Of a stretch of DNA of 36,194 nt, positions 23,810 to 35,467 are shown piece after piece (positions within the stretch are counted from its first letter, which is position 1; every line of letters starts with the position of its first letter). The notes under the pieces are model-generated. The model was not told the origin of the DNA. It was given only the letters and a program-made list of their open reading frames with translations, and ran no database searches. Location of the stretch: contig JALSIJ010000269.1 in the NCBI GenBank assembly GCA_026981655.1, positions 1 through 36,194 on the forward strand. Direction: 5' to 3'. Source of the DNA: Rhizobiaceae bacterium (GTDB lineage: Bacteria; Pseudomonadota; Alphaproteobacteria; Rhizobiales; Rhizobiaceae). The translations under genes were made by a program, and so were the position numbers.

Positions 23810-25213
23810 ATGATATTCAGCTCGTTAGATTTCATTATATATTTTCTGCCAGTGGTTTTTACGACCTTTTGGCTTGCGAACCTGTATTCGAAGAAATTAT
23901 CGATACTGGTGCTCTGCGTTTCTTCAATGGCATTTTATGCCTATTGGAAATGGGAATATACGCTGCTTTTTGCCGGTTCGATCCTGATCAACTATTTATG
24001 CTATCGCCTGATTGAAGCCTCCGGCAAGGTTGCCGTTCTAAAAACTGGCATCATCGCAAACTTGTTGCTGATCGCTGTTTATAAATACGCAAATTTTTTC
24101 GTATCCGATGTTGCGCAATATGAGCCCTGGCAACAGTATGTTGAAAACATTATACTGCCGTTGGGCATTAGCTTTTTCACATTCCAGCAGGTTTCATTTC
24201 TTGTTGATAGCTACCGCGAAAAGCAGGAGCGGGTGAGCCTGCTCAACTATTTTGCCTATGTTTCGTTTTTCCCACAGCTTATTGCCGGGCCGATTGTTCG
24301 CCACGATGAGTTTCTTTATCAGCTCAACGAGAAACTTAACCTCAAGGCTAATTTCGTTCGTGGGTTGTTGTTTTTCTCGATTGGTTTGGCGAAGAAGGTG
24401 ATGATTGCCGATACGCTTTCAGCCTATGTTAAACTTGGATATGCAGATCCGACTTTGCTTAGCACACCAGATGCATGGATGCTGTCGCTGCTCTATACAT
24501 TCCAGCTTTATTTTGATTTCTCAGGCTATAGCGATATGGCGATTGGTCTGGCGCTGATGTTTGGCCTGCAATTGCCGCAAAACTTTCATTCGCCTTACAA
24601 GTCCGCCAGCATTCAGGAATTCTGGCAACGCTGGCACATGACCCTGTCTCGCTGGCTGCGCGATTATTTGTATATTCCACTGGGTGGTTCGCGAAATGGC
24701 GAATTGCGCACCTATATGGCCCTGCTGGCGACAATGTTCCTTGGCGGGCTTTGGCATGGGGCAGGGTGGACATTTGTTGTGTGGGGCGCGGCACACGGTG
24801 TGGCTCTTGCAATCAACCGTATGTGGTCGAAAGCTGGTTTTAAATTGCCGATGATCATTGGCTGGATGTTGACATTCTTGTTTGTAGTCAACCTTTGGGT
24901 CGTGTTCAGGGCTGAAAATTTTGGCCTTGCTGCTCAAGTTTATACACAGATGTGGGATGTGGCGACATTGCTTAATCCGCAGAGCTGGGTGCATCAGATA
25001 TTCCAACCCAACCTTTGGCTCGCCCTTGGTGCTTTGGTCATCATCGTGACCGCTATGCCAAATTCGTGGCAGATGGATGCCTGGTATCAAGAAAATCGCA
25101 GCGTTGCCCGTCAGGCTATCGGGTATTTTTCGTTCGGATTGTTTTTCATGTTTTCGGTCAAACGAATGATGGAAGCATCCGCCCCCAGTGAATTTATTTA
25201 TTTTCAGTTTTAG
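23810..25213 (+). CDS. MBOAT-family O-acyltransferase (AlgI/DltB/PatA-like)
   Basis: This polytopic inner-membrane acyltransferase has 467 residues. The N-terminal part has several hydrophobic helices; LPLGISFFTFQQVSFLVDSYR, FFPQLIAGPIVRHDEF and LYTFQLYFDFSGYSDMAIGLALMFG are landmarks of the AlgI-type MBOAT family. QEFWQRWHMTLSRWLRDYLY and the nearly invariant His316 in GGLWHGAGWTF mark the active site. Such enzymes move acyl groups, usually acetyl or D-alanyl, across the membrane onto exported polysaccharide, teichoic acid or peptidoglycan. The adjacent gene, 12 bases downstream, encodes an SGNH-like partner, as in AlgI/AlgJ, PatA/PatB and DltB/DltD systems. No polysaccharide synthase is nearby, so the acceptor is unknown. 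An AGGGGA lies rather far (15 bases) from the ATG. Confidence 0.92.
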   Translation: MIFSSLDFIIYFLPVVFTTFWLANLYSKKLSILVLCVSSMAFYAYWKWEYTLLFAGSILINYLCYRLIEASGKVAVLKTGIIANLLLIAVYKYANFFVSDVAQYEPWQQYVENIILPLGISFFTFQQVSFLVDSYREKQERVSLLNYFAYVSFFPQLIAGPIVRHDEFLYQLNEKLNLKANFVRGLLFFSIGLAKKVMIADTLSAYVKLGYADPTLLSTPDAWMLSLLYTFQLYFDFSGYSDMAIGLALMFGLQLPQNFHSPYKSASIQEFWQRWHMTLSRWLRDYLYIPLGGSRNGELRTYMALLATMFLGGLWHGAGWTFVVWGAAHGVALAINRMWSKAGFKLPMIIGWMLTFLFVVNLWVVFRAENFGLAAQVYTQMWDVATLLNPQSWVHQIFQPNLWLALGALVIIVTAMPNSWQMDAWYQENRSVARQAIGYFSFGLFFMFSVKRMMEASAPSEFIYFQF

Positions 25214-25225
25214 GGAGAGGATATC

Positions 25226-26707
25226 ATGCGGCTTTTTGCTTTTATTACCGGTGTTTTCGCAGCCCTAATGCTGTTTGTTGCCAGCCCATATTTGTTGAAA
25301 GATAATGCTGCCAAGGCATCCTATTGGATACCCAAGGTATTCACTTATCAGGATCAATTGCTGGCCAAGCGCGACAATCGTCCCAAACTGGTGATTATTT
25401 CCGGTTCCAATGGCATTTACGGATTTGATGGCAACTATCTGGAAAAATACACTAATTTTGATGTGGTCAATATGGCTGTTCATATCGGGTTTGACTTGAG
25501 CCTGTATAAAAACCGGTTGGCCGGAAAATTGAAGCGTGGTGATGTGGTCATTGCACCTCTTGAACATGGTCTTTACCGTCGCGAGGAAACAACTGATTTC
25601 CATCAGAAGCAAAATCTTTTGTGGATGCAGCGTTTCTTTGATTATGATACGTGGATTGAGAAGCTTACCTATAATCTCGAAACACCATCTGAGATTTATT
25701 TTGACCTCGCATTGCAGAAAGTTATGGGTAAGAAGCGTGATCTTGCCGGTCTTGCTGCACTTGGTAACGATAGAATTACGGCACCGCGTATAATGCCAAA
25801 ACGTAAACCCTTGCACGTGAGCCTTGCAGACAAGGACGGGTTTTTCAACATTCCACTTGCACCAAGTAAGTCTGTCTTAAAAATTTTTGCCAGGCAAAAG
25901 CGCCCCTATACAGCGCTGCCGGTGAGTGCTGCATCTGGAACCAGTGCAATCGCCAAATTACAGGAATTGAAAGCATCTGTTGAAGCGCAAGGTGCAAAGT
26001 TTTATTTAACCTGGCCGACAATGGCAGAGCTTAAATCTCACTCCCGCTATGACAAGAAACTGGTGAAAAGTTACAAGCGTTTCCAGGCCGCACTAAAAAG
26101 CTCCAATCTGGATATGATCTGCAATCCGGCAAAGCAGTTTATTCCAGCAAAATATTTCAGTGATACGGTTTATCACGTAAATGCCTGGGGTGCGATTGAG
26201 CGATCAATCAATCTTGCACAATGTCTAAAACGTATTGAAGGCAGTGTCTTTCAGATAGCCAATTCGGTAGATCAGCATTCAGTGGAAAATCAATTGTCTA
26301 TTCGCAGCAGTCGTACAAAAATGCTGGCCCCATTTGAGGTGGCATTGCGCGACTTAAATGTTGTGAAAGGCGGGCTTGAGGCCTATTACCGCGATCATGG
26401 GGCCTATCCAAAGTCGAGTGACGATGGCAAGGGGTGGGATGGACCTCGTTCCAAATGGGGAGAGCGCACCAAGGTCTGGATAAAGGATCTCGTACCTGAT
26501 TATATTGATGCATTACCCGTCGATTGGCGCAACTCCAATAGTGTTGATTACCAATATTTATACAAATCGAACGGTAAAGTGTTCAAAATGATGAATCGCA
26601 GGCCACCTGACTGCCAATTGGCAAAGACCATAGTTCCCAAGTTTTCTGACGTATCACGGAATTGCTGGGCTTATGGAATTTATCAGGGCTACGCCAAGAC
26701 CTGGTGA
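25226..26707 (+). CDS. SGNH-like MBOAT partner fused to a pseudopilin-like C-terminal domain
   Basis: This 493-residue protein starts with an N-terminal membrane anchor or signal (residues 4-24), placing the rest in the periplasm. Residues about 53-335 look like an SGNH/DltD/AlgX-type domain: a nucleophile loop LVIISGSNGIYGF with Ser61, and a late SDTVYHVNAWGA with Asp313 and His317 resembling the D...H block. From about residue 372 the sequence changes to one like GspG major pseudopilins after their helix: ALRDLNVVKGGLEAYYRDHG, then AYPKSSDDG, a Trp-rich stretch, LVPDYIDALPVDWRN, and a YQYLYKSNGKVFKMM strand pair. The C-terminal end has Cys residues (PDCQ and RNCW) that may pair. AGGGAGAGG precedes the ATG. 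It is surely coexpressed with the MBOAT gene. The fusion is unusual; the fold assignments are by eye. Confidence 0.75.
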   Translation: MRLFAFITGVFAALMLFVASPYLLKDNAAKASYWIPKVFTYQDQLLAKRDNRPKLVIISGSNGIYGFDGNYLEKYTNFDVVNMAVHIGFDLSLYKNRLAGKLKRGDVVIAPLEHGLYRREETTDFHQKQNLLWMQRFFDYDTWIEKLTYNLETPSEIYFDLALQKVMGKKRDLAGLAALGNDRITAPRIMPKRKPLHVSLADKDGFFNIPLAPSKSVLKIFARQKRPYTALPVSAASGTSAIAKLQELKASVEAQGAKFYLTWPTMAELKSHSRYDKKLVKSYKRFQAALKSSNLDMICNPAKQFIPAKYFSDTVYHVNAWGAIERSINLAQCLKRIEGSVFQIANSVDQHSVENQLSIRSSRTKMLAPFEVALRDLNVVKGGLEAYYRDHGAYPKSSDDGKGWDGPRSKWGERTKVWIKDLVPDYIDALPVDWRNSNSVDYQYLYKSNGKVFKMMNRRPPDCQLAKTIVPKFSDVSRNCWAYGIYQGYAKTW

Positions 26708-26803: not shown

Positions 26804-27169
26804 ATGAGAACTTTATCCGAAAAAATTTCGATGCTTGAGATTGGCGGGCGTAAAATTCCTCGCGATGAGGCAGGTTTTTTGATGGAACCAGTCGACTGGG
26901 ATAGGGACGTTGCTAAATTTATTGCAGCTGAAGAAAATATCGAATTGAACAGTGAGCATTGGGATATTATCAAATTTGTTCGCGACAGTTTTGAACGTGA
27001 TGCGATTACACCGGATGCCAGACTTGCCTATCGGTTTGTCGCTGATACATCGGGGTTAGGTCGAAATGAATCCCGTAAACACTTTTATGATTTGTTTCCC
27101 TATGGCTATGTCACACAAACCTGCAGAATAGCTGGAATGCGACAACCGAGAACATGGAGCACTGGGTAG
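26804..27169 (+). CDS. DsrC/TusE-family sulfur relay protein with atypical C-terminus
   Basis: This 121-residue protein matches the DsrC/TusE/DsvC family: GFLMEPVDWDRDVAKFIAAE, then NSEHWDIIKFVRDSFER, DAITPDARLAYRF, and the end motif FYDLFPYGYVTQTCRIAGM. Classical DsrC has two C-terminal cysteines, CysB in the QxCRIAG motif and CysA eleven residues later as the penultimate residue; TusE keeps only CysA. Here CysB is present (Cys107), but the CysA position is Trp118, followed by Ser-Thr-Gly. The frame and stop look clean, so this is not an obvious frameshift. DsrC proteins carry sulfur as persulfides or trisulfides; related proteins lacking CysA are thought to be regulatory. The next gene downstream is xsc, then soeABC, so a role linked to sulfonate-derived sulfite is likely but inferred. 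AAAGGA precedes the ATG. Confidence 0.88.
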   Translation: MRTLSEKISMLEIGGRKIPRDEAGFLMEPVDWDRDVAKFIAAEENIELNSEHWDIIKFVRDSFERDAITPDARLAYRFVADTSGLGRNESRKHFYDLFPYGYVTQTCRIAGMRQPRTWSTG

Positions 27170-27198
27170 TCATTGGCTGATTTGGTGTGGCGAAGATT

Positions 27199-27237
27199 GC
27201 CATGAAAATATCGCGATTGCGACGCCGATATTTTGGC
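27199..27237. terminator. Long AT-rich hairpin after the DsrC-like gene
   Basis: AAAATATCG (27205-27213) and CGATATTTT (27226-27234) form a perfect nine-base-pair stem around a 12-base loop. GCC (27199-27201) and GGC (27235-27237) extend it across a three-base bulge. It lies 30 bases after the stop. The T-rich 3' arm is part of the stem, so it is a weak intrinsic terminator or a regulatory hairpin before xsc. Confidence 0.4.
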
Positions 27238-27298
27238 ACCATACCTGCGGTCAAACTGGTGCTAATATTAAGCCTGAACTAGGTATGTATGGATTCAT

Positions 27299-27327
27299 GT
27301 GTAAATCTGAATTAGCATGATTTACAC
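27299..27327. promoter_or_regulatory. Interrupted palindrome (candidate operator) upstream of xsc
   Basis: GTGTAAATC (27299-27307) and GATTTACAC (27319-27327) are perfect inverted repeats separated by 11 bases, centred about 50 bases before the xsc ATG. Half-site centres are 20 bases apart, near two helical turns, as expected for a dimeric regulator on one DNA face. The regulator is unknown; no taurine-type MocR/GntR regulator gene is in the window. Confidence 0.5.
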
Positions 27328-27362
27328 TTAAATTCTATCTCTAAGTTCAGGATGGTTTTCCC

Positions 27363-29135
27363 ATGAAAATGACCACAGAAGAAGCCTTTGTAAAAGTACT
27401 ACAAATGCATGGTATCGAACATGCATTTGGTATTATTGGTTCGGCGTTCATGCCGATTTCCGACCTTTTTAACAAGGCTGGGATTACGTTTTGGGATGTG
27501 GCTCATGAAACCAATGGTGGTTTGATCTGTGATGGCTATACCCGCTCAACCGGTAAAATGGCGATGGCGATTGCGCAAAACGGGCCGGGGATTACCGGAT
27601 TTGTGACGCCGATTAAAACGGCCTACTGGAACCATACGCCGATGTTGCTGGTAACGCCGCAGGCGGCCAATAAGACCATCGGGCAGGGTGGGTTCCAGGA
27701 AGTTGAGCAAATGGCGCTTTTCCGCGATATGGTTTGTTATCAGGAAGAGGTGCGCGACCCTTCCCGTATGGGCGAGGTGCTCAACCGGGTTATTGAGAAA
27801 GCCATTCGTGGTTCTGCGCCAGCGCAAATCAATGTGCCGCGCGATATGTGGACGCAAGTGATTGATATTGAATTGCCGCAGATTGTGCGGCTGGAGCGTC
27901 CTGCCGGTGGAGCGGAGGCCGTTACTGAAGCCGCGCGGCTGCTTTCTGAGGCTAAATCTCCCGTCATATTGTCGGGTGCTGGCGTTGTTATTGGTGATGC
28001 AATTGATGAATGTGTGGCACTGGCTGAACGGCTGGATGCGCCGGTTTGCAGTGGTTATCAGCATAATGATTCGTTCCCCGGTTCCCATCCACTTGCGGCC
28101 GGGCCATTGGGATATAACGGTTCAAAAGCTGCGATGGAATTGATTGCGCAGGCCGATGTGGTTCTGGCTCTTGGTACAAGGCTCAATCCGTTTTCGACCT
28201 TGCCGGGTTATGGCATTGATTACTGGCCGAAGGACGCAAAAATTATTCAGGTTGATATGAATTCAGACCGCATTGGACTGACCAAAAAAGTAACTGTAGG
28301 CATTTGTGGCGACGCGAAACTGGTAGCCAAAAGCATTTTGGCGCAACTGGCACCTAACGCGGGTGATGCGGGGCGTGAAGATCGCAAGGCGCTCATTCAT
28401 CAGACAAAATCCGCATGGCTGCAAACCCTTGCCAGCATGGACCACGAGGATGATGATCCTGGTACGCATTGGAACGAAAGTTCTCGCGAGCGCGATCCTG
28501 ATCGCATGTCTCCGCGTATGGCTTGGCGTGCTATTCAGGATGGATTGCCGAAGGATGCGATCATTTCCAGCGACATCGGCAATAATTGCGCGATTGGTAA
28601 TGCCTATCCACGTTTTGATGAGGGCCGCAAATATCTGGCTCCGGGTCTGTTTGGCCCGTGCGGATATGGATTTCCGGCAATCATTGGCGCAAAAATTGGC
28701 TGCCCTGATATGCCGGTTGTCGGCTTTGCCGGAGATGGTGCATTTGGGATCTCAATGAATGAGATGACCTCGATTGGCCGCGAGGATTGGCCCGCCGTTA
28801 CAATGGTTATTTTCCGTAATTACCAATGGGGCGCTGAAAAACGAAATACCACCCTTTGGTATGATAATAATTTCATTGGCACCGAACTTGATCCTCACTT
28901 GAGTTATGCCAAAGTCGCAGAGGGTTGTGGGTTGAAAGGTGTCACCGTCAATACGCAAGCTGAATTGACGAGCACATTGGTGCAGGCCTGTGAAGATCAG
29001 GCCAAGGGGGTGACAACTTTTATTGAGGTCATTCTCAATCAGGAGTTGGGCGAACCTTTCCGCCGTGATGCAATGACTGCACCTGTGGAAGTTGCCGGTA
29101 TTGATCCTGCCGATATGCGGCCGCAGAAAGTTTAG
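27363..29135 (+). CDS. xsc: Sulfoacetaldehyde acetyltransferase
   Basis: Xsc is a thiamine-diphosphate enzyme that converts sulfoacetaldehyde plus phosphate to sulfite and acetyl phosphate. It is the key desulfonation step for taurine, isethionate and related C2 sulfonates. The 590-residue protein has the N-terminal Pyr domain with Glu49 in DVAHETNGGLICDGYTRSTG, a central domain (about 190-330), and the PP domain. The Mg-ThDP motif begins at GDG (457-459) and runs to the RNYQWGAEKRN segment. IIGSAFMPISDL near the start and NVPRDMWTQVIDIELPQI are typical of Xsc rather than acetolactate synthase. The usual neighbour pta (phosphate acetyltransferase) is not here. The DsrC-like gene lies upstream and soeABC downstream, the latter able to oxidise the sulfite made. 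An operator-like palindrome precedes it and a strong hairpin follows. Confidence 0.95.
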   Translation: MKMTTEEAFVKVLQMHGIEHAFGIIGSAFMPISDLFNKAGITFWDVAHETNGGLICDGYTRSTGKMAMAIAQNGPGITGFVTPIKTAYWNHTPMLLVTPQAANKTIGQGGFQEVEQMALFRDMVCYQEEVRDPSRMGEVLNRVIEKAIRGSAPAQINVPRDMWTQVIDIELPQIVRLERPAGGAEAVTEAARLLSEAKSPVILSGAGVVIGDAIDECVALAERLDAPVCSGYQHNDSFPGSHPLAAGPLGYNGSKAAMELIAQADVVLALGTRLNPFSTLPGYGIDYWPKDAKIIQVDMNSDRIGLTKKVTVGICGDAKLVAKSILAQLAPNAGDAGREDRKALIHQTKSAWLQTLASMDHEDDDPGTHWNESSRERDPDRMSPRMAWRAIQDGLPKDAIISSDIGNNCAIGNAYPRFDEGRKYLAPGLFGPCGYGFPAIIGAKIGCPDMPVVGFAGDGAFGISMNEMTSIGREDWPAVTMVIFRNYQWGAEKRNTTLWYDNNFIGTELDPHLSYAKVAEGCGLKGVTVNTQAELTSTLVQACEDQAKGVTTFIEVILNQELGEPFRRDAMTAPVEVAGIDPADMRPQKV

Positions 29136-29182
29136 TTGTTCCAGTTCGCAAACAATTGCATCTTAAAATTTGAAATTGCCAA

Positions 29183-29209
29183 CCCCGCTCAAACTTTATT
29201 TGGGCGGGG
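29183..29209 (+). terminator. Intrinsic terminator after xsc
   Basis: An 11-base-pair stem (CCCCGCTCAAA with TTTGGGCGGGG, one T-G pair) closes a five-base CTTTA loop, 47 bases after the xsc stop. It is followed by CTGTTT, a modest T-rich tract. This is the clearest hairpin in the window and should separate the xsc transcript from soeABC. Confidence 0.75.
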
Positions 29210-29643
29210 CTGTTTGCATTGGCAATAATTTTGGTATTTGCGATTCTGTATTTTTCAATATACGGCTAAAAAATCCCGAAAACGCGATAATATTATACGG
29301 GCAGGGCTGCTTTCTGGCTTTATTTCCCGCATCGCCGGTGTTGATGGCAAGGTGGTTTTAATTTGTATATTCAACCTTGTCCGGGCTGTGATTGTGCGCC
29401 GTGCAAGCCTGGTGATGTATCTGTTCCTGTCTTTGATAACATCGCTGTTCTATTACCTTTTCTTCGATCTGATGAGCGAACCGATAGACTGGTGTGTTGT
29501 AAATTCAGGCGTGCCAGCAACTATTAAGTGCTCTTGTTGGGGGTTCAATTTTCTTCATATATCATGAGAAAATCGGTCCAATATGTTTTCTCGTTCTGTT
29601 GATATTTCTCGCAGCAACTGGACTTTTCTGCGTTAACCTGTAA
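29210..29643 (+). pseudogene. Possible decayed small membrane protein gene between xsc and soeA
   Basis: The 536 bases between xsc and soeA hold no intact convincing gene, but hydrophobic stretches appear successively in all three plus frames. Frame 2 gives FALAIILVFAILYFSIYG up to a stop at 29267-29269. Frame 3 continues from there with KKSRKRDNIIRAGLLSGF, then VVLICIFNLVRAVIV and LVMYLFLSLITSLFYYLFF, to about 29523. Frame 1 then gives SALVGGSIFFIYHEKIGP and CFLVLLIFLAATGLFCVNL, ending in a TAA at 29641-29643. Joined, they would make a roughly 140-residue protein with four membrane helices, interrupted by two frameshifts and lacking a good start. I do not recognise the family. Chance hydrophobicity of T-rich DNA is the alternative. 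A single ORF of 109 codons at 29238-29567 covers only the middle piece. Confidence 0.3.
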
Positions 29644-29671
29644 ACATGCGAATAAATGAATAGGATAATGT

Positions 29672-32533
29672 ATGAGCGCGGAACCAATTCTCAATCTTGA
29701 TGAACCTGTCGGGGACGAGGTACGTCAGACCACCTGTTACATGTGTGCCTGTCGCTGTGGAATTAATGTTCACATGCGTGATGGCAAGGTTCGATATATT
29801 GAGGGCAACCGCGATCACCCCATTAATAAGGGTATTTTGTGCGCCAAAGGTTCTGCTGGAATCATGCAGCATTATTCTCCAGCCCGGCTAAAAGCACCGA
29901 TGCTGCGTACCGGGCCACGTGGTTCTGGTGAATATAAGGAAATCACCTGGGAAGAGGCGATGGAGAAGGCCGTCAGTTGGCTGAAACCTCTGCGTGAAAA
30001 ACCTAAAAAACTTGCATTCTTTACCGGGCGCGATCAATCACAATCTTTCACCAGCCTTTGGGCTAAACAATTTGGCACGCCAAATTATGCTGCTCATGGT
30101 GGCTTTTGCTCGGTCAATATGGCGGCTGCCGGCATTTACACCATTGGTGGTGCATTCTGGGAATTTGGTTCACCGGACTGGGACCGAACAAAATTGTTTG
30201 TTATGTTTGGTGTGGCTGAAGACCATGACAGCAATCCGATTAAAGCAGGGCTTGGCAAGATCAAGAAAAATGGCGCGCGGTTTGTATCGGTAAACCCGAT
30301 CCGCACCGGCTATTCTGCCATAGCGGATGACTGGTTGGGTATTCGTCCTGGCACGGATGGTTTGTTGATCATGTCGCTGATTCACGAACTGTTTAAAAAC
30401 CGCAAGATTGATCTCGATTATCTGATCCGTTATTCAAACGCGCCCTGGCTAGTAATTAATGCTCCGGATACCGAGAATCACGGATTGTTCGCCCGCGATA
30501 AGGACGGTAATGAACTGGTTATTGATTCTAAAACCGGCAAAACCGTTTCGCGGCACAAAAAAGGTGTCACAGCAGCTCTAACCGGCAAGATTAAGCTCAA
30601 GGATGGTGCATCGGCACGTCCGGCGCTTGAGTTGATGGCCGAGGAATATCTGAAGGAAGAACACTCGCCAGATGCGGTTGCTGAAACCACTGGAATTGAT
30701 GCTAAAACCATCAAAGGTCTTGCTGCCGAAATTGCTCGCGTTGCCTTTGAGGAAGAAATTGTTATCGAGCAGCCGTGGACGGATATGAAAGGCGAAAAAC
30801 ATGATCGCTTTATTGGTCGCCCGGTTTCTTTCCATGCCATGCGTGGTATTTCTGCCCATTCGAACGGTTTTCAAACCTGCCGTGCCTTGCATGTTTTACA
30901 GGTGCTGATCGGTTCTGTTGACGTGCCGGGTGGATTTAGAAACAAACCACCATATCCAAAACCAGTTTCAGCCCATCCGCGCCCCCATACCTTGATGCAT
31001 CCTTTCTTGCCCGGTCAACCTTTGGCCGGTCCGCATCTGGGTTATCCAACAGGGCCTGAAGATTTGCTGCAGGACGTTGATGGAGTTGCCTGCCGTATCG
31101 ACAAAGCCTTTACTTGGGAAGCGCCGATGGCGGTGCACGGTCAAATGCATATGGTGATTGCCAACGCTCATGCGGGCGATCCCTATAAGATTGATACTTT
31201 GTTTCTTTATATGGCCAATATGGCCTGGAATTCCTCGATGAATACCCGTGGCACAATCGAAATGCTCGAGGACAAGGACCCGGAAACAGGCGAATATAAA
31301 ATTCCCCACATCATTTACTCTGATGCTTATTCGAGTGAAATGGTGGCCTATGCTGATTTGATTTTGCCGGATACGACCTACCTTGAACGGTATGATTGTA
31401 TCTCTTTGCTTGATCGTCCAATTTCCGAACCTGATGCGGTTTGTGATTCCATTCGCTGGCCCGTGGTTGAGCCTGAGCGCGAAGGCCATGAGGGCGTTCG
31501 TGGTTTTCAGTCTGTACTTCTGGATCTTGGCGTTCGGCTTAAACTGGAAGAGTTTGTTGATCTTGATGGCAAGGCAATTTACAAAGACTATGCCGATTAT
31601 ATGATCAACCATTTGCGCCGCCCGGGCGTTGGGCCTTTGGCCGGCTTCCGTGGCAAGGACGGTAAAAGTGAGGGGCGGGGAGACCCTAACCCGGATCAAA
31701 TTGAAGCCTATAAAAAGAACGGCTCATTTTGGAAAAAGAAAATTCCAATGGAAGCGCAATTCTTCAAGCATGCAAACAAGGCCTATCAGGATTTTGCTGT
31801 TGAAATGGGCTTTTTTGATGAGCCATCTCCGGTGGTGTTTCAGCTCTATTCTGAAGAAATGCAGAAATTTCGGCTTGCCGGTATGGGGTTGCGTGAACCG
31901 CAGCCACCGGAACATTTGCGCCAACAGGTGACCGATTGCTTTACACCGCTGCCTAGCTGGTATGAGCCATTTGAAGAAGCCGGGGTTGATAATTCAGAAT
32001 ACCCGCTTCATGCGCTGACACAGCGACCAATGGCTATGTACCATTCATGGGGTTCGCAAAATGCTTGGTTGCGTCAGATTCACACCAAAAATCCGCTCTA
32101 TGTGCCGGGTGCGGTATGTGATGAGCATGACTTGAAAGATGGCGATTGGGCCTGGGTTTCTTCATGGCACGGGAAAATCAAAGTCGAGATTGCCCGTATG
32201 GATGCGGTTAATAACAAAACACTTTGGACATGGAATGCGATCGGAAAACGTGGCGGCGCATGGGCGCTGGATGCTAAAGCACCGGAGGCAACCAAGGGCT
32301 TTTTGCTCAATCATTTGATCAGCGAGTTGTTGCCGCCAAAGGGCGACGGTCGCAGGTGGTCTAATTCAGATCCGATTACCGGTCAGGCATCCTGGTTTGA
32401 TCTTCGCATCAAAATCGAAAAGGCAGAAGAGGGCGGCACGGTCAGCGAACCCCATTTTAAGCCGCAAAAACGCCCCGGTGATAATGAGAAAACGCCAATA
32501 GTATTGAGATTTGGTCAGGAGTGGACGAAATGA
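29672..32533 (+). CDS. soeA: Sulfite dehydrogenase (quinone) molybdopterin subunit SoeA
   Basis: This 953-residue molybdoenzyme belongs to the DMSO reductase superfamily, complex iron-sulfur molybdoenzyme type. The N-terminal [4Fe-4S] ligands are Cys22, Cys25, Cys29 and Cys57, followed by a Lys two residues on (GILCAKG). The likely molybdenum ligand is Cys146 in HGGFCSVNMAAAG. There is no twin-arginine signal peptide, so the subunit faces the cytoplasm, as described for SoeABC of Allochromatium. SoeA would oxidise sulfite to sulfate there. It is followed by a four-cluster ferredoxin subunit and a NrfD/DmsC-type anchor, each overlapping the last by a few bases. The xsc gene just upstream produces sulfite, which makes SoeA far more likely than a thiosulfate or polysulfide reductase or a formate dehydrogenase. 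AGGA lies before the ATG. Confidence 0.88.
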   Translation: MSAEPILNLDEPVGDEVRQTTCYMCACRCGINVHMRDGKVRYIEGNRDHPINKGILCAKGSAGIMQHYSPARLKAPMLRTGPRGSGEYKEITWEEAMEKAVSWLKPLREKPKKLAFFTGRDQSQSFTSLWAKQFGTPNYAAHGGFCSVNMAAAGIYTIGGAFWEFGSPDWDRTKLFVMFGVAEDHDSNPIKAGLGKIKKNGARFVSVNPIRTGYSAIADDWLGIRPGTDGLLIMSLIHELFKNRKIDLDYLIRYSNAPWLVINAPDTENHGLFARDKDGNELVIDSKTGKTVSRHKKGVTAALTGKIKLKDGASARPALELMAEEYLKEEHSPDAVAETTGIDAKTIKGLAAEIARVAFEEEIVIEQPWTDMKGEKHDRFIGRPVSFHAMRGISAHSNGFQTCRALHVLQVLIGSVDVPGGFRNKPPYPKPVSAHPRPHTLMHPFLPGQPLAGPHLGYPTGPEDLLQDVDGVACRIDKAFTWEAPMAVHGQMHMVIANAHAGDPYKIDTLFLYMANMAWNSSMNTRGTIEMLEDKDPETGEYKIPHIIYSDAYSSEMVAYADLILPDTTYLERYDCISLLDRPISEPDAVCDSIRWPVVEPEREGHEGVRGFQSVLLDLGVRLKLEEFVDLDGKAIYKDYADYMINHLRRPGVGPLAGFRGKDGKSEGRGDPNPDQIEAYKKNGSFWKKKIPMEAQFFKHANKAYQDFAVEMGFFDEPSPVVFQLYSEEMQKFRLAGMGLREPQPPEHLRQQVTDCFTPLPSWYEPFEEAGVDNSEYPLHALTQRPMAMYHSWGSQNAWLRQIHTKNPLYVPGAVCDEHDLKDGDWAWVSSWHGKIKVEIARMDAVNNKTLWTWNAIGKRGGAWALDAKAPEATKGFLLNHLISELLPPKGDGRRWSNSDPITGQASWFDLRIKIEKAEEGGTVSEPHFKPQKRPGDNEKTPIVLRFGQEWTK

Positions 32534-33330
32534 CAACACTCCCGCAAAGCACAGACAAAAAACTAGGCCTTGTCATTGATCTCGACACCTGTGTTGGCTG
32601 TCATGCCTGTGTCATTGCCTGCAAGGAATGGAATACCGGCGGATATGGCAGCGCCTTGTCAGACCAGCAACCCTATGGTGCTGAGCCTGAGGGATCGTTC
32701 TTAAACCGTATTCACACATTTGAAATTGTACCCGAAGGCGGCGAGGTGATCGACCAGTCGGCGGATTCTCGCGTGGTTCATTTTCCCAAATCCTGCCTGC
32801 ATTGTGAGGACGCACCCTGCGTTACGGTTTGCCCAACGGGTGCCTCTTACAAGCGCGCGGAAGATGGTATTGTTCTGGTCGATGAAGACAAATGCATGGG
32901 CTGCGGGCTGTGCGCTTGGTCTTGTGCTTACGGCGCGCGCGAAATGGATATTTCTGCCGGCATAATGAAAAAATGTACGCTCTGCGTCGACCGTATTTAC
33001 AATGAGACGATCCCGGAAGTAGACCGTATTCCATCCTGTGTGCGAACCTGTCCGGCCGGTGCCAGACATTTTGGCGATCTTGGCGACCCGCAATCTGATG
33101 TATCAATACTTGTGGCGGAACGCGGCGGGTTTGATCTGATGCCGGAGCAGGGCAACAAGCCAACCAATAAATATTTGCCACCAAGGGAGCGCAAGCCTTT
33201 ATCTGATGCGGTAAACACCGGGTTTGAAGCTGCAAATTCCGATAATGTCGGCGATGCGACTGGATTTTTTGGCTGGATTGATAAGACCCTTTCGAAGGGT
33301 TCCAACAATTCCAAAGTGGGAGAAGAGTAA
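32530..33330 (+). CDS. soeB: Sulfite dehydrogenase iron-sulfur subunit SoeB
   Basis: This 266-residue electron-transfer subunit has four [4Fe-4S] cluster motifs of the DmsB/PsrB/NrfC kind. They are CVGCHACVIACKEWN near residue 21, CLHCEDAPCVTVCPTGAS near 87, CMGCGLCAWSCAYGARE near 119, and CTLCVDRI with CVRTCPAGAR completing the set. It passes electrons from the SoeA molybdenum site to the membrane anchor. The best start is the ATG at 32530, which overlaps the soeA stop as ATGA and has AGGAG about nine bases upstream. The frame is open to a GTG three codons earlier. No export signal is present. Its stop overlaps the soeC start as TAATG. Confidence 0.9.
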   Translation: MTTLPQSTDKKLGLVIDLDTCVGCHACVIACKEWNTGGYGSALSDQQPYGAEPEGSFLNRIHTFEIVPEGGEVIDQSADSRVVHFPKSCLHCEDAPCVTVCPTGASYKRAEDGIVLVDEDKCMGCGLCAWSCAYGAREMDISAGIMKKCTLCVDRIYNETIPEVDRIPSCVRTCPAGARHFGDLGDPQSDVSILVAERGGFDLMPEQGNKPTNKYLPPRERKPLSDAVNTGFEAANSDNVGDATGFFGWIDKTLSKGSNNSKVGEE

Positions 33331-34268
33331 TGCATCCCGCCTATTCAGTGATCTTTTTTACAACATTAACCGGCGCCGGATATGGATTGGCTGCCTTGCT
33401 CGGATTTGGCCTTGCGGACCCGACAATGTTATCGGCTAAACTCGGCTACTTTCTGGCACTTGGTCTGATTACCGTCGGATTGTTATCTTCGACCTTGCAT
33501 CTGGGTAATCCTAAAAATGCAATTCGGGCATTTTCTCAATGGCGTTCAAGCTGGTTGTCGAGGGAAGGGGTGTTGGCAATTGTTACCTTCGTTCCTGTAA
33601 CAATTTTGGCATACACCAATATTTTCATGGATATGCATATTGGCTGGCTGGGTTGGGTATCCGCTGTATTGAGCATGATGACCGTCTACAGCACGTCGAT
33701 GATTTATGCATCTATTAGAACTGTAAACCTGTGGAACACCTGGTTGACCTCGGCCAGCTATCTGCTGTTTTCCAATGCTGGAGGCGCTGTTATTTTGACC
33801 GCTTTGCTGGCGCTGTTTGAAGGCGGTTCCGGTGATATGCCCAAAATTGCCATTGTTGCTTTGGTTGTCGCATGGATTGCCAAATGGTTTTGGAACAAAC
33901 GTCAAAGTGAAGGCTATGGCGGTTCAACTATGGCAACGGCTACCGGGCTTGGCCATCTTGGAAAAGTTAGATTATTGGAGCGCCCGCATGCAATGGAAAA
34001 CTATCTGACCCGTGAAATGGGTTTTCGCGTGGCGCGTAAACATGCGGCAAAATTGTGGAATATTGCGGTGCTTATGGGGCTGTTGGTGCCAGCCGTCATG
34101 CTCGCAATTGCCTTTGGATTGCAAGGGTCGACCACAGCAATTTTGCTTTCTGTTATTGCCGTAATTACACATATGATTGGTATGCTGGTCGAACGCTGGT
34201 TGTTCTTTGCTACGGCAAAACACGCAGTATCTCTGTACTATGGCGATACGGCTTTAGACGTTAAATAA
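33330..34268 (+). CDS. soeC: Membrane anchor subunit SoeC (DmsC/NrfD-like)
   Basis: This 312-residue polytopic protein resembles the DmsC anchor of DMSO reductase. About eight hydrophobic helices can be seen, for example YSVIFFTTLTGAGYGLAALL, LGYFLALGLITVGLLSSTLH, EGVLAIVTFVPVTILAY and AVITHMIGMLVERWLFFATA. The segment HLGNPKNAIRAFSQWRSSWLSREG is the characteristic loop of DmsC-type anchors. It anchors SoeAB to the cytoplasmic side of the membrane and passes electrons to quinone. It overlaps the soeB stop codon, so the three subunits are coupled in translation. No clear intrinsic terminator is seen in the 101 bases after it. Confidence 0.9.
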   Translation: MHPAYSVIFFTTLTGAGYGLAALLGFGLADPTMLSAKLGYFLALGLITVGLLSSTLHLGNPKNAIRAFSQWRSSWLSREGVLAIVTFVPVTILAYTNIFMDMHIGWLGWVSAVLSMMTVYSTSMIYASIRTVNLWNTWLTSASYLLFSNAGGAVILTALLALFEGGSGDMPKIAIVALVVAWIAKWFWNKRQSEGYGGSTMATATGLGHLGKVRLLERPHAMENYLTREMGFRVARKHAAKLWNIAVLMGLLVPAVMLAIAFGLQGSTTAILLSVIAVITHMIGMLVERWLFFATAKHAVSLYYGDTALDVK

Positions 34269-35391: not shown

Positions 35392-35467
35392 TGGTGCCGC
35401 TTAGGTGATTTGAACACCTGACCTCCGCATTACGAATGCGATGCTCTACCAACTGAGCTAAAGCGGC
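35392..35467 (-). tRNA. tRNA-Thr (anticodon CGT)
   Basis: Read on the minus strand, the acceptor stem GCCGCTT pairs with AAGCGGC, followed by discriminator A and an encoded CCA. The D arm contains AGCTCAGTTGGTAGAGC. The anticodon stem TCGCA/TGCGG encloses loop TTCGTAA with anticodon CGT, reading ACG threonine codons. The T arm is AGGTGTTCAAATCACCT. Length is 76 bases, and all stems pair apart from a wobble at the top of the anticodon stem. The sequence after the CCA on the minus strand begins TTTTCTTCTT, a T-rich stretch suited to termination. Confidence 0.97.

Follow-up and report, generated by a model that had tools for sequence, protein, structure and literature searches.

Xsc cleaves sulfoacetaldehyde to acetyl phosphate and sulfite, and SoeABC oxidises sulfite to sulfate, the electrons passing to the quinone pool. 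In Ruegeria pomeroyi DSS-3, the xsc of which is presumably SPO3561, both enzymes are encoded together, and sulfite is formed as well as oxidised in the cytoplasm. A passage of PMC4334477 that deals with re-annotated genes only places soeCBA (SPO3557-3559), pta (SPO3560) and tauR (SPO3562) of this strain in one run of locus tags, and names no DsrC-family gene. For alphaproteobacterial TauR regulons, a passage of PMC5320631 lists xsc, pta and tauE, and in some Rhodobacterales also bisC-dmsC-hybA, which would correspond to soeABC. The present analysis concerns a 36,194-nucleotide stretch of a Rhizobiaceae genome of 3.43 Mb (contig C269, JALSIJ010000269.1; hereafter the window), in which a gene of the DsrC/TusE family precedes xsc and soeABC. 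The window resembles R. pomeroyi in encoding Xsc and SoeABC together, and differs in that the pta and tauR of the R. pomeroyi run are not seen in it. The xsc-soeABC genes form an ordinary, known sulfonate-to-sulfate unit, and the adjacent DsrC paralog, which has a single cysteine, most likely serves the reverse-Dsr pathway in trans and is not a conserved part of that unit.

The linkage of the DsrC paralog with xsc and soe was assessed in a group of proteins sharing its C-terminal arm (C-X10-W-S-T-G), for which a scan of named genomes yielded 19 loci, or 20 genomes with the window. At cut-offs of E 1e-90 or better for xsc and E 1e-60 or better for soeA, these genes are found in 16 and 15 of the 20 genomes, respectively. 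Carriers of the group include Rhodobium orientis DSM 11290 and Sinisalibacter aestuarii B-399, the latter without an xsc match. In 2 of the 16 genomes the paralog is on the xsc contig, and in 2 of the 15 on the soeA contig, both times in the window genome (G000) and a congener (G151); as contigs are short in some genomes, a near but broken linkage can be missed. Among the 19 named loci, of which 15 were scanned and the other 4 read from their open reading frames (ORFs), xsc or soe lies in the flanks of one, that of the same congener (L064), and the only SoeA match in the flank of L074 is a TorA-type enzyme, at 21%. The preliminary description had proposed for the DsrC-like protein a role in the sulfonate pathway, either as a sensor or as a sulfur-binding partner; this proposal is not supported, the group being found far oftener away from xsc and soe than beside them.

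In a third congener, G132, the gene of a 493-aa protein, which also lies upstream of the DsrC gene in the window, is followed directly by xsc, with no DsrC gene between them. The DsrC paralog of G132 (57% identical) is on another contig, and the tree leaves its orthology to that of the window unsettled. Since the G132 xsc is split over two contigs, its order from xsc to TauE-soeABC is inferred across the break. The DsrC gene would owe its place to a local rearrangement, having been inserted between the 493-aa gene and xsc in the lineage of the window, or lost there in the sister species.

The DsrC group tracks reverse-Dsr rather than xsc or soe. dsrA is found above its family cut-off in 18 of the 20 genomes with the group; in G158, one contig has a canonical DsrC as well as a dsrB-type match, and a second contig has a dsrA scrap of 27 residues. 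Any DsrC occurs in 6 of 151 genomes of the host family, and the canonical copy of each lies beside dsr genes, as read from the ORFs in five and, for G025, via dsrA on the same contig (assembly G166). The one-cysteine paralog is present in five of these six genomes and absent in G065.

The genome of the window itself has a dsr operon on contig C185, with its own canonical DsrC ending in C-X10-C-V. DsrA (572 bits), DsrB (498.6), DsrK (580.4) and DsrO (313.3) are matched above the cut-offs of their models, as are the dsrEFH products (TusD/DsrE 161.9, TusC/DsrF 110.2 and TusB/DsrH 102.8). For DsrM, DsrJ and DsrP, too, the best match is to the protein's own model, yet below the cut-off (149.8 of 300, 57.3 of 100 and 65.4 of 350 bits, respectively), and DsrL was named from its position and NAD(P)-binding family. 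The TusBCD-type set found in the genome is the dsrEFH of this operon, no search for other sets having been made. The earlier statement that no dsrAB or tusBCD genes are nearby therefore holds for the window, where the ORF lists were read by eye and nine ORFs scanned against Pfam, and fails at the level of the genome. Presence of the reverse-Dsr operon, together with an adjacency local to two species, leaves the link of DsrC to sulfonates unsupported, and this tempting partnership is removed. The DsrC paralog would instead assist or regulate the reverse-Dsr machinery, acting in trans.

Units of xsc and soe without DsrC were also identified. In the survey of the 151 family genomes (E 1e-200 or better), xsc is found in 42, soeA in 67 and both in 35; the two lie within 15 kb on one contig in 9 genomes, 6 of which are without any DsrC match. 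The arrangement in G082, of another genus of the family and lacking DsrC, is TauR-xsc-TauE-soeABC. Two Hyphomicrobiaceae genomes carry xsc-pta followed by soeABC (G160) or, where the contig ends (G159), by soeA and a partial soeB; the stretches read contain no DsrC match. In G157, three xsc matches lie on three contigs (L167, L177 and L179), one of them full-length and two partial. Family membership, the recurrence with tauE or pta and soe, and passages of PMC4334477 and PMC5320631 bear out the Xsc-to-SoeABC part of the preliminary description. Xsc would split sulfoacetaldehyde in the cytoplasm with release of sulfite, which SoeABC, from its predicted activity, would oxidise to sulfate with the quinone pool as acceptor.

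The same SoeABC probably also completes reverse-Dsr sulfur oxidation, because soeABC lies near dsr genes in relatives: in G163, G166 and G162, soeA and dsr genes are about 20 kb or less apart, with soeABC on the dsr contig in G162, and soeABC of G025/G166 is accompanied by tusA, by a gene of the DsrE family and by a DsrC relative that has no cysteine. In a sponge-symbiont study, one genome is reported to carry both soeABC and reverse-Dsr (PMC12625764). SoeABC may hence be a shared sulfite oxidase, with its genes now near dsr and now beside xsc. L029 (4183-11545) and L238 have soeABC near tusA, DsrE-family and CobB/CobQ-like (dsrN-type) genes in a dsr neighbourhood, and L029 additionally has a cysteine-free DsrC relative.

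The order of the DsrC-family gene, xsc, soeA, soeB and soeC on the + strand, as previously given, was confirmed from the ORF list, with all five ORFs uninterrupted. The features of the locus are as follows:

25226-26707, + strand: 493-aa protein, directly upstream, a boundary marker outside the unit (comparison with congener G132)
26804-27169, + strand: DsrC-family paralog, 121 aa, sole cysteine C107, without the penultimate CysA (PF04358, AlphaFold model, alignment)
27122-27166, + strand: C-terminal arm, running from C107 to the last residue, C-X10-W against canonical C-X10-C (alignments of 20 members; 74 DsrC-family sequences)
27170-27362, + strand: xsc leader (comparison with congener G132)
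27363-29135, + strand: xsc, sulfoacetaldehyde acetyltransferase (TIGR03457)
about 29210-29634, + strand: decayed gene of a TauE/SafE-type sulfite exporter (tblastn with the intact 271-aa protein of G132)
29672-32533, + strand: soeA, molybdopterin/Fe4S4 subunit (Pfam domains)
32521-33330, + strand: soeB, 4Fe-4S ferredoxin-type subunit (Fer4_11)
33330-34268, + strand: soeC, DmsC-type membrane anchor (PF04976, 56.8 bits)

Xsc matches TIGR03457 at 968 bits, above the curated cut-off of 676.4, and is the only clear copy of the genome, the next-best match being 27% identical. The Mo/Fe4S4 subunit, the ferredoxin subunit (Fer4_11) and the DmsC-type anchor of SoeABC are all present, in that order; the NCBIfam matches of the window proteins include no SoeA model, and the names of the Soe proteins are therefore based on their domains and the order of the genes. 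SoeA is probably cytoplasmic, since a twin-arginine signal was not seen in its N-terminus, as read by eye.

The 536-bp gap between xsc and soeA, passed over in the preliminary description, is a remnant of a TauE/SafE-type gene. The G132 counterpart is intact (271 aa; L060 5338-6153) and matches PF01925 at 78.4 bits; tblastn of this protein against the gap gives two matches in different frames, one of 97 aa at 48% identity and one of 42 aa at 43%. In the window and in congener G034, the gene has lost its N-terminal half and its reading frame is broken. Since the sulfite exporter has decayed in this lineage, SoeABC would be the sole system for sulfite disposal remaining at the locus.

Some observations weigh against assigning the DsrC paralog to reverse-Dsr and away from the unit. 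The DsrC-like gene precedes xsc by only 193 bp, on the same strand, and is under purifying selection, and the terminator scan found no + strand terminator-like site in the gap between them. This short same-strand gap without such a site, with the selection, makes co-transcription of DsrC and xsc possible in this lineage; promoter and terminator scans of the locus gave nothing decisive. Furthermore, xsc is found in 6/6 DsrC-bearing family genomes against 36/145 of the others (Fisher p 3.5e-4, uncorrected for relatedness), an excess that is no independent proof because the genomes are related, and a link of DsrC and xsc at the pathway level may exist. A metabolic link across the whole cell, via a shared sulfite pool and SoeABC, is plausible. 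Finally, G156 carries the group but has no dsrA match of note, in a genome that may be incomplete. A role of the DsrC-like protein in the sulfonate pathway, for example binding of sulfite on the single cysteine or signalling of sulfite to the locus, can draw on the adjacency and co-orientation of the genes in two species, the purifying selection on all five, and the presence of xsc in the six DsrC-bearing family genomes and in 16 of the 20 group genomes. Such a role is nevertheless very doubtful, given the absence of DsrC before xsc in the third congener, the paralog lying off the xsc contig in 14 of the 16 genomes that carry xsc and the paralog, the six family genomes with xsc and soeA together and no DsrC, and the 4 of 20 group genomes in which no xsc match was found.

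The ratios of nonsynonymous to synonymous substitution rates (dN/dS) against congener G034 are 0.048 for the DsrC-like protein, 0.022 for Xsc, 0.013 for SoeA, 0.039 for SoeB and 0.060 for SoeC, so that all five genes are under purifying selection. The occurrence of the paralog at many different loci and the loss of CysA would suit a decaying or neutral paralog without function. The low dN/dS between two species and a C-terminal arm nearly invariant across 20 genomes speak against this explanation, which is highly improbable.

DsrC relatives of the RspA type are defined by the absence of both arm cysteines. In Allochromatium vinosum, the reverse-Dsr DsrC is described in parts of PMC3397948 as persulfurated exclusively at Cys111, a residue called strictly conserved in DsrC, and its upstream cysteine is said there to go with DsrAB. 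The window protein belongs to the DsrC family, as evident from PF04358 (98.5 bits, cut-off 24.9) and TIGR03342 (85.4 bits, cut-off 53.5). Its AlphaFold model (pLDDT 82.7) matches A. vinosum DsrC (1yx3) best in the PDB, with a TMq of 0.79, and the sequence search also matches 1yx3, which suggests a DsrC fold. Besides the predicted fold, it has in common with A. vinosum DsrC the FPYG and CxIAG arm and the upstream arm cysteine, C107 standing in the register of Cys100. Unlike A. vinosum DsrC, in which Cys111 takes persulfide from DsrEFH, the window protein has W118 at that position and no equivalent cysteine, lies outside a dsr operon and bears a W-S-T-G tail.

The two-cysteine arm (C-X10-C) of DsrC sensu stricto is thus absent from the window protein, which has one cysteine in its entire length, and so is a location in the dsr operon, where a separate C-X10-C DsrC is encoded. 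A single cysteine is also found in TusE, which is of the same DsrC/TusE family and works with TusBCD and MnmA; TusE, however, keeps the penultimate CysA, where the window protein has W, and the PRK11508 TusE model is matched at 67 of 191 bits. The window protein is the reverse of TusE, because the upstream arm cysteine is kept and the penultimate one lost. The RspA type does not apply either, as one arm cysteine is retained in the window protein and in 24 of the 26 sequences with the same arm. Judged by sequence, neither the definition of DsrC nor that of TusE covers the one-cysteine group, and a bridge between CysA and CysB presumably cannot form, because CysA is lost.

Among the 20 group proteins, the arm cysteine is kept in 19, and the CysA register is occupied by W in 19 and by F in one. 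A set of 74 distinct DsrC-family sequences comprises 26 with this arm (the cysteine missing in 2), 17 canonical, 5 TusE-like, 13 RKGGY-ending, which are without the arm cysteine, and 13 other sequences. The 26 sequences form one branch of the tree with a support of 91/96, under the starred threshold of the tool, and the deep order is unsure because of long branches. The genomes behind L064-L082 have one to eight DsrC-family matches each, of several arm types, including RKGGY and PGGP...QG endings.

A phage survey, in the part considered of PMC8190135, counts DsrC-type proteins with both motifs (23), the second only (112), the first only (1) and neither (5). Part of another study, on phages of SUP05 bacteria, describes a viral dsrC_1 group without the second C-terminal cysteine (PMC4164917), because of which the one-cysteine arm pattern may not be unique. 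By this description, the viral group possibly has the same cysteine pattern, while it also lacks a 7-8 residue insertion and is found in viruses of SUP05 bacteria. In titles and abstract openings of the open-licence literature, no DsrC gene beside xsc is described, and the one-cysteine group is undescribed there apart from these two phage papers (PMC8190135 and PMC4164917). A mobile-element origin of the DsrC gene was considered and rejected: plasmid and phage protein searches gave only distant relatives (identity of 36.8% or less), named TusE wherever the gene is annotated. A scan of viral contigs for the DsrC-like protein confirmed no relatives.

An all-against-all comparison of the ORFs near the 26 group loci revealed no neighbour family common to all. 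Near-relative pairs aside, the recurring recognisable neighbours are mainly of nitric oxide (NO) type. Markers of this type (Rrf2/NsrR-like, globin, hemerythrin, NnrS and NapC, molybdoenzymes not being counted) lie within 6 kb of 9/26 group loci (7/20 genomes), against 0/57 control loci, when queries from the own genome of each locus are left out. The controls were drawn largely from the same genomes and comprised other DsrC-type loci as well as loci of xsc, soe and dsr; the sequence compared was 257 kb for the group and 595 kb for the controls. The nine loci are L115, L117, L118, L069, L075 (with a cytochrome d1-type gene), L076, L079, L074 and L071. Molybdoenzymes near 5/26 group loci were rejected as evidence, as only L074 remains when queries from the own genome and from that of the congener are left out; molybdoenzyme matches also occur in 13/57 control loci, most of them soe loci.

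This NO-gene neighbourhood of the one-cysteine group is offered as a lead only. In reverse-Dsr bacteria, the group could be part of a regulon for NO/nitrosative stress or for anaerobic respiration; NO or persulfide chemistry would act on the cysteine, and the window copy would have left its original setting. Such a regulon, compatible with a service of the paralog to reverse-Dsr in trans, is a tentative possibility. It draws on the marker counts and on the two Rrf2 neighbours scanned, for which NsrR is the best NCBIfam match. The markers, however, were selected post hoc, after inspection of the group loci; none lies near the window copy, and one genome (G167) contributes three copies to the nine loci. 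The NsrR matches are below the curated cut-off (122 of 182), and FNR/NNR-like boxes were found upstream of 3/20 loci, against about 1 expected. A more specific mechanism, in which the group, distinct and widely kept in reverse-Dsr alphaproteobacteria, couples sulfur oxidation to NO or nitrate respiration, is unlikely; the lone cysteine would react with NO or persulfide, whereupon the protein would damp the pathway by binding DsrAB/DsrEFH or DNA. If it were true, sulfite oxidation in one genus would, through the window copy, come under such control too.

The 493-aa protein upstream has no Pfam or NCBIfam matches. An MBOAT acyltransferase gene followed by that of the 493-aa protein (23810-26707) forms a pair that is conserved before xsc in each of the three congeners seen, whether DsrC intervenes or not. 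In G132, where the DsrC gene is absent there, a weakly similar xsc leader comes directly after the 493-aa gene. No pta, taurine transport or aminotransferase genes were recognised in the window when the ORF lists were read by eye, which agrees with the preliminary description. A search for pta in the genome led to no assignment. Its matches were a 307-aa ORF with 38% identity to a pta that neighbours xsc in a relative, another ORF of 142 aa with 48% identity over 139 aa, and two long ones, of 783 and 774 aa, read as malic enzymes. Just past the cluster lies a tRNA-Thr (CGT) gene, at 35392-35467 on the - strand.

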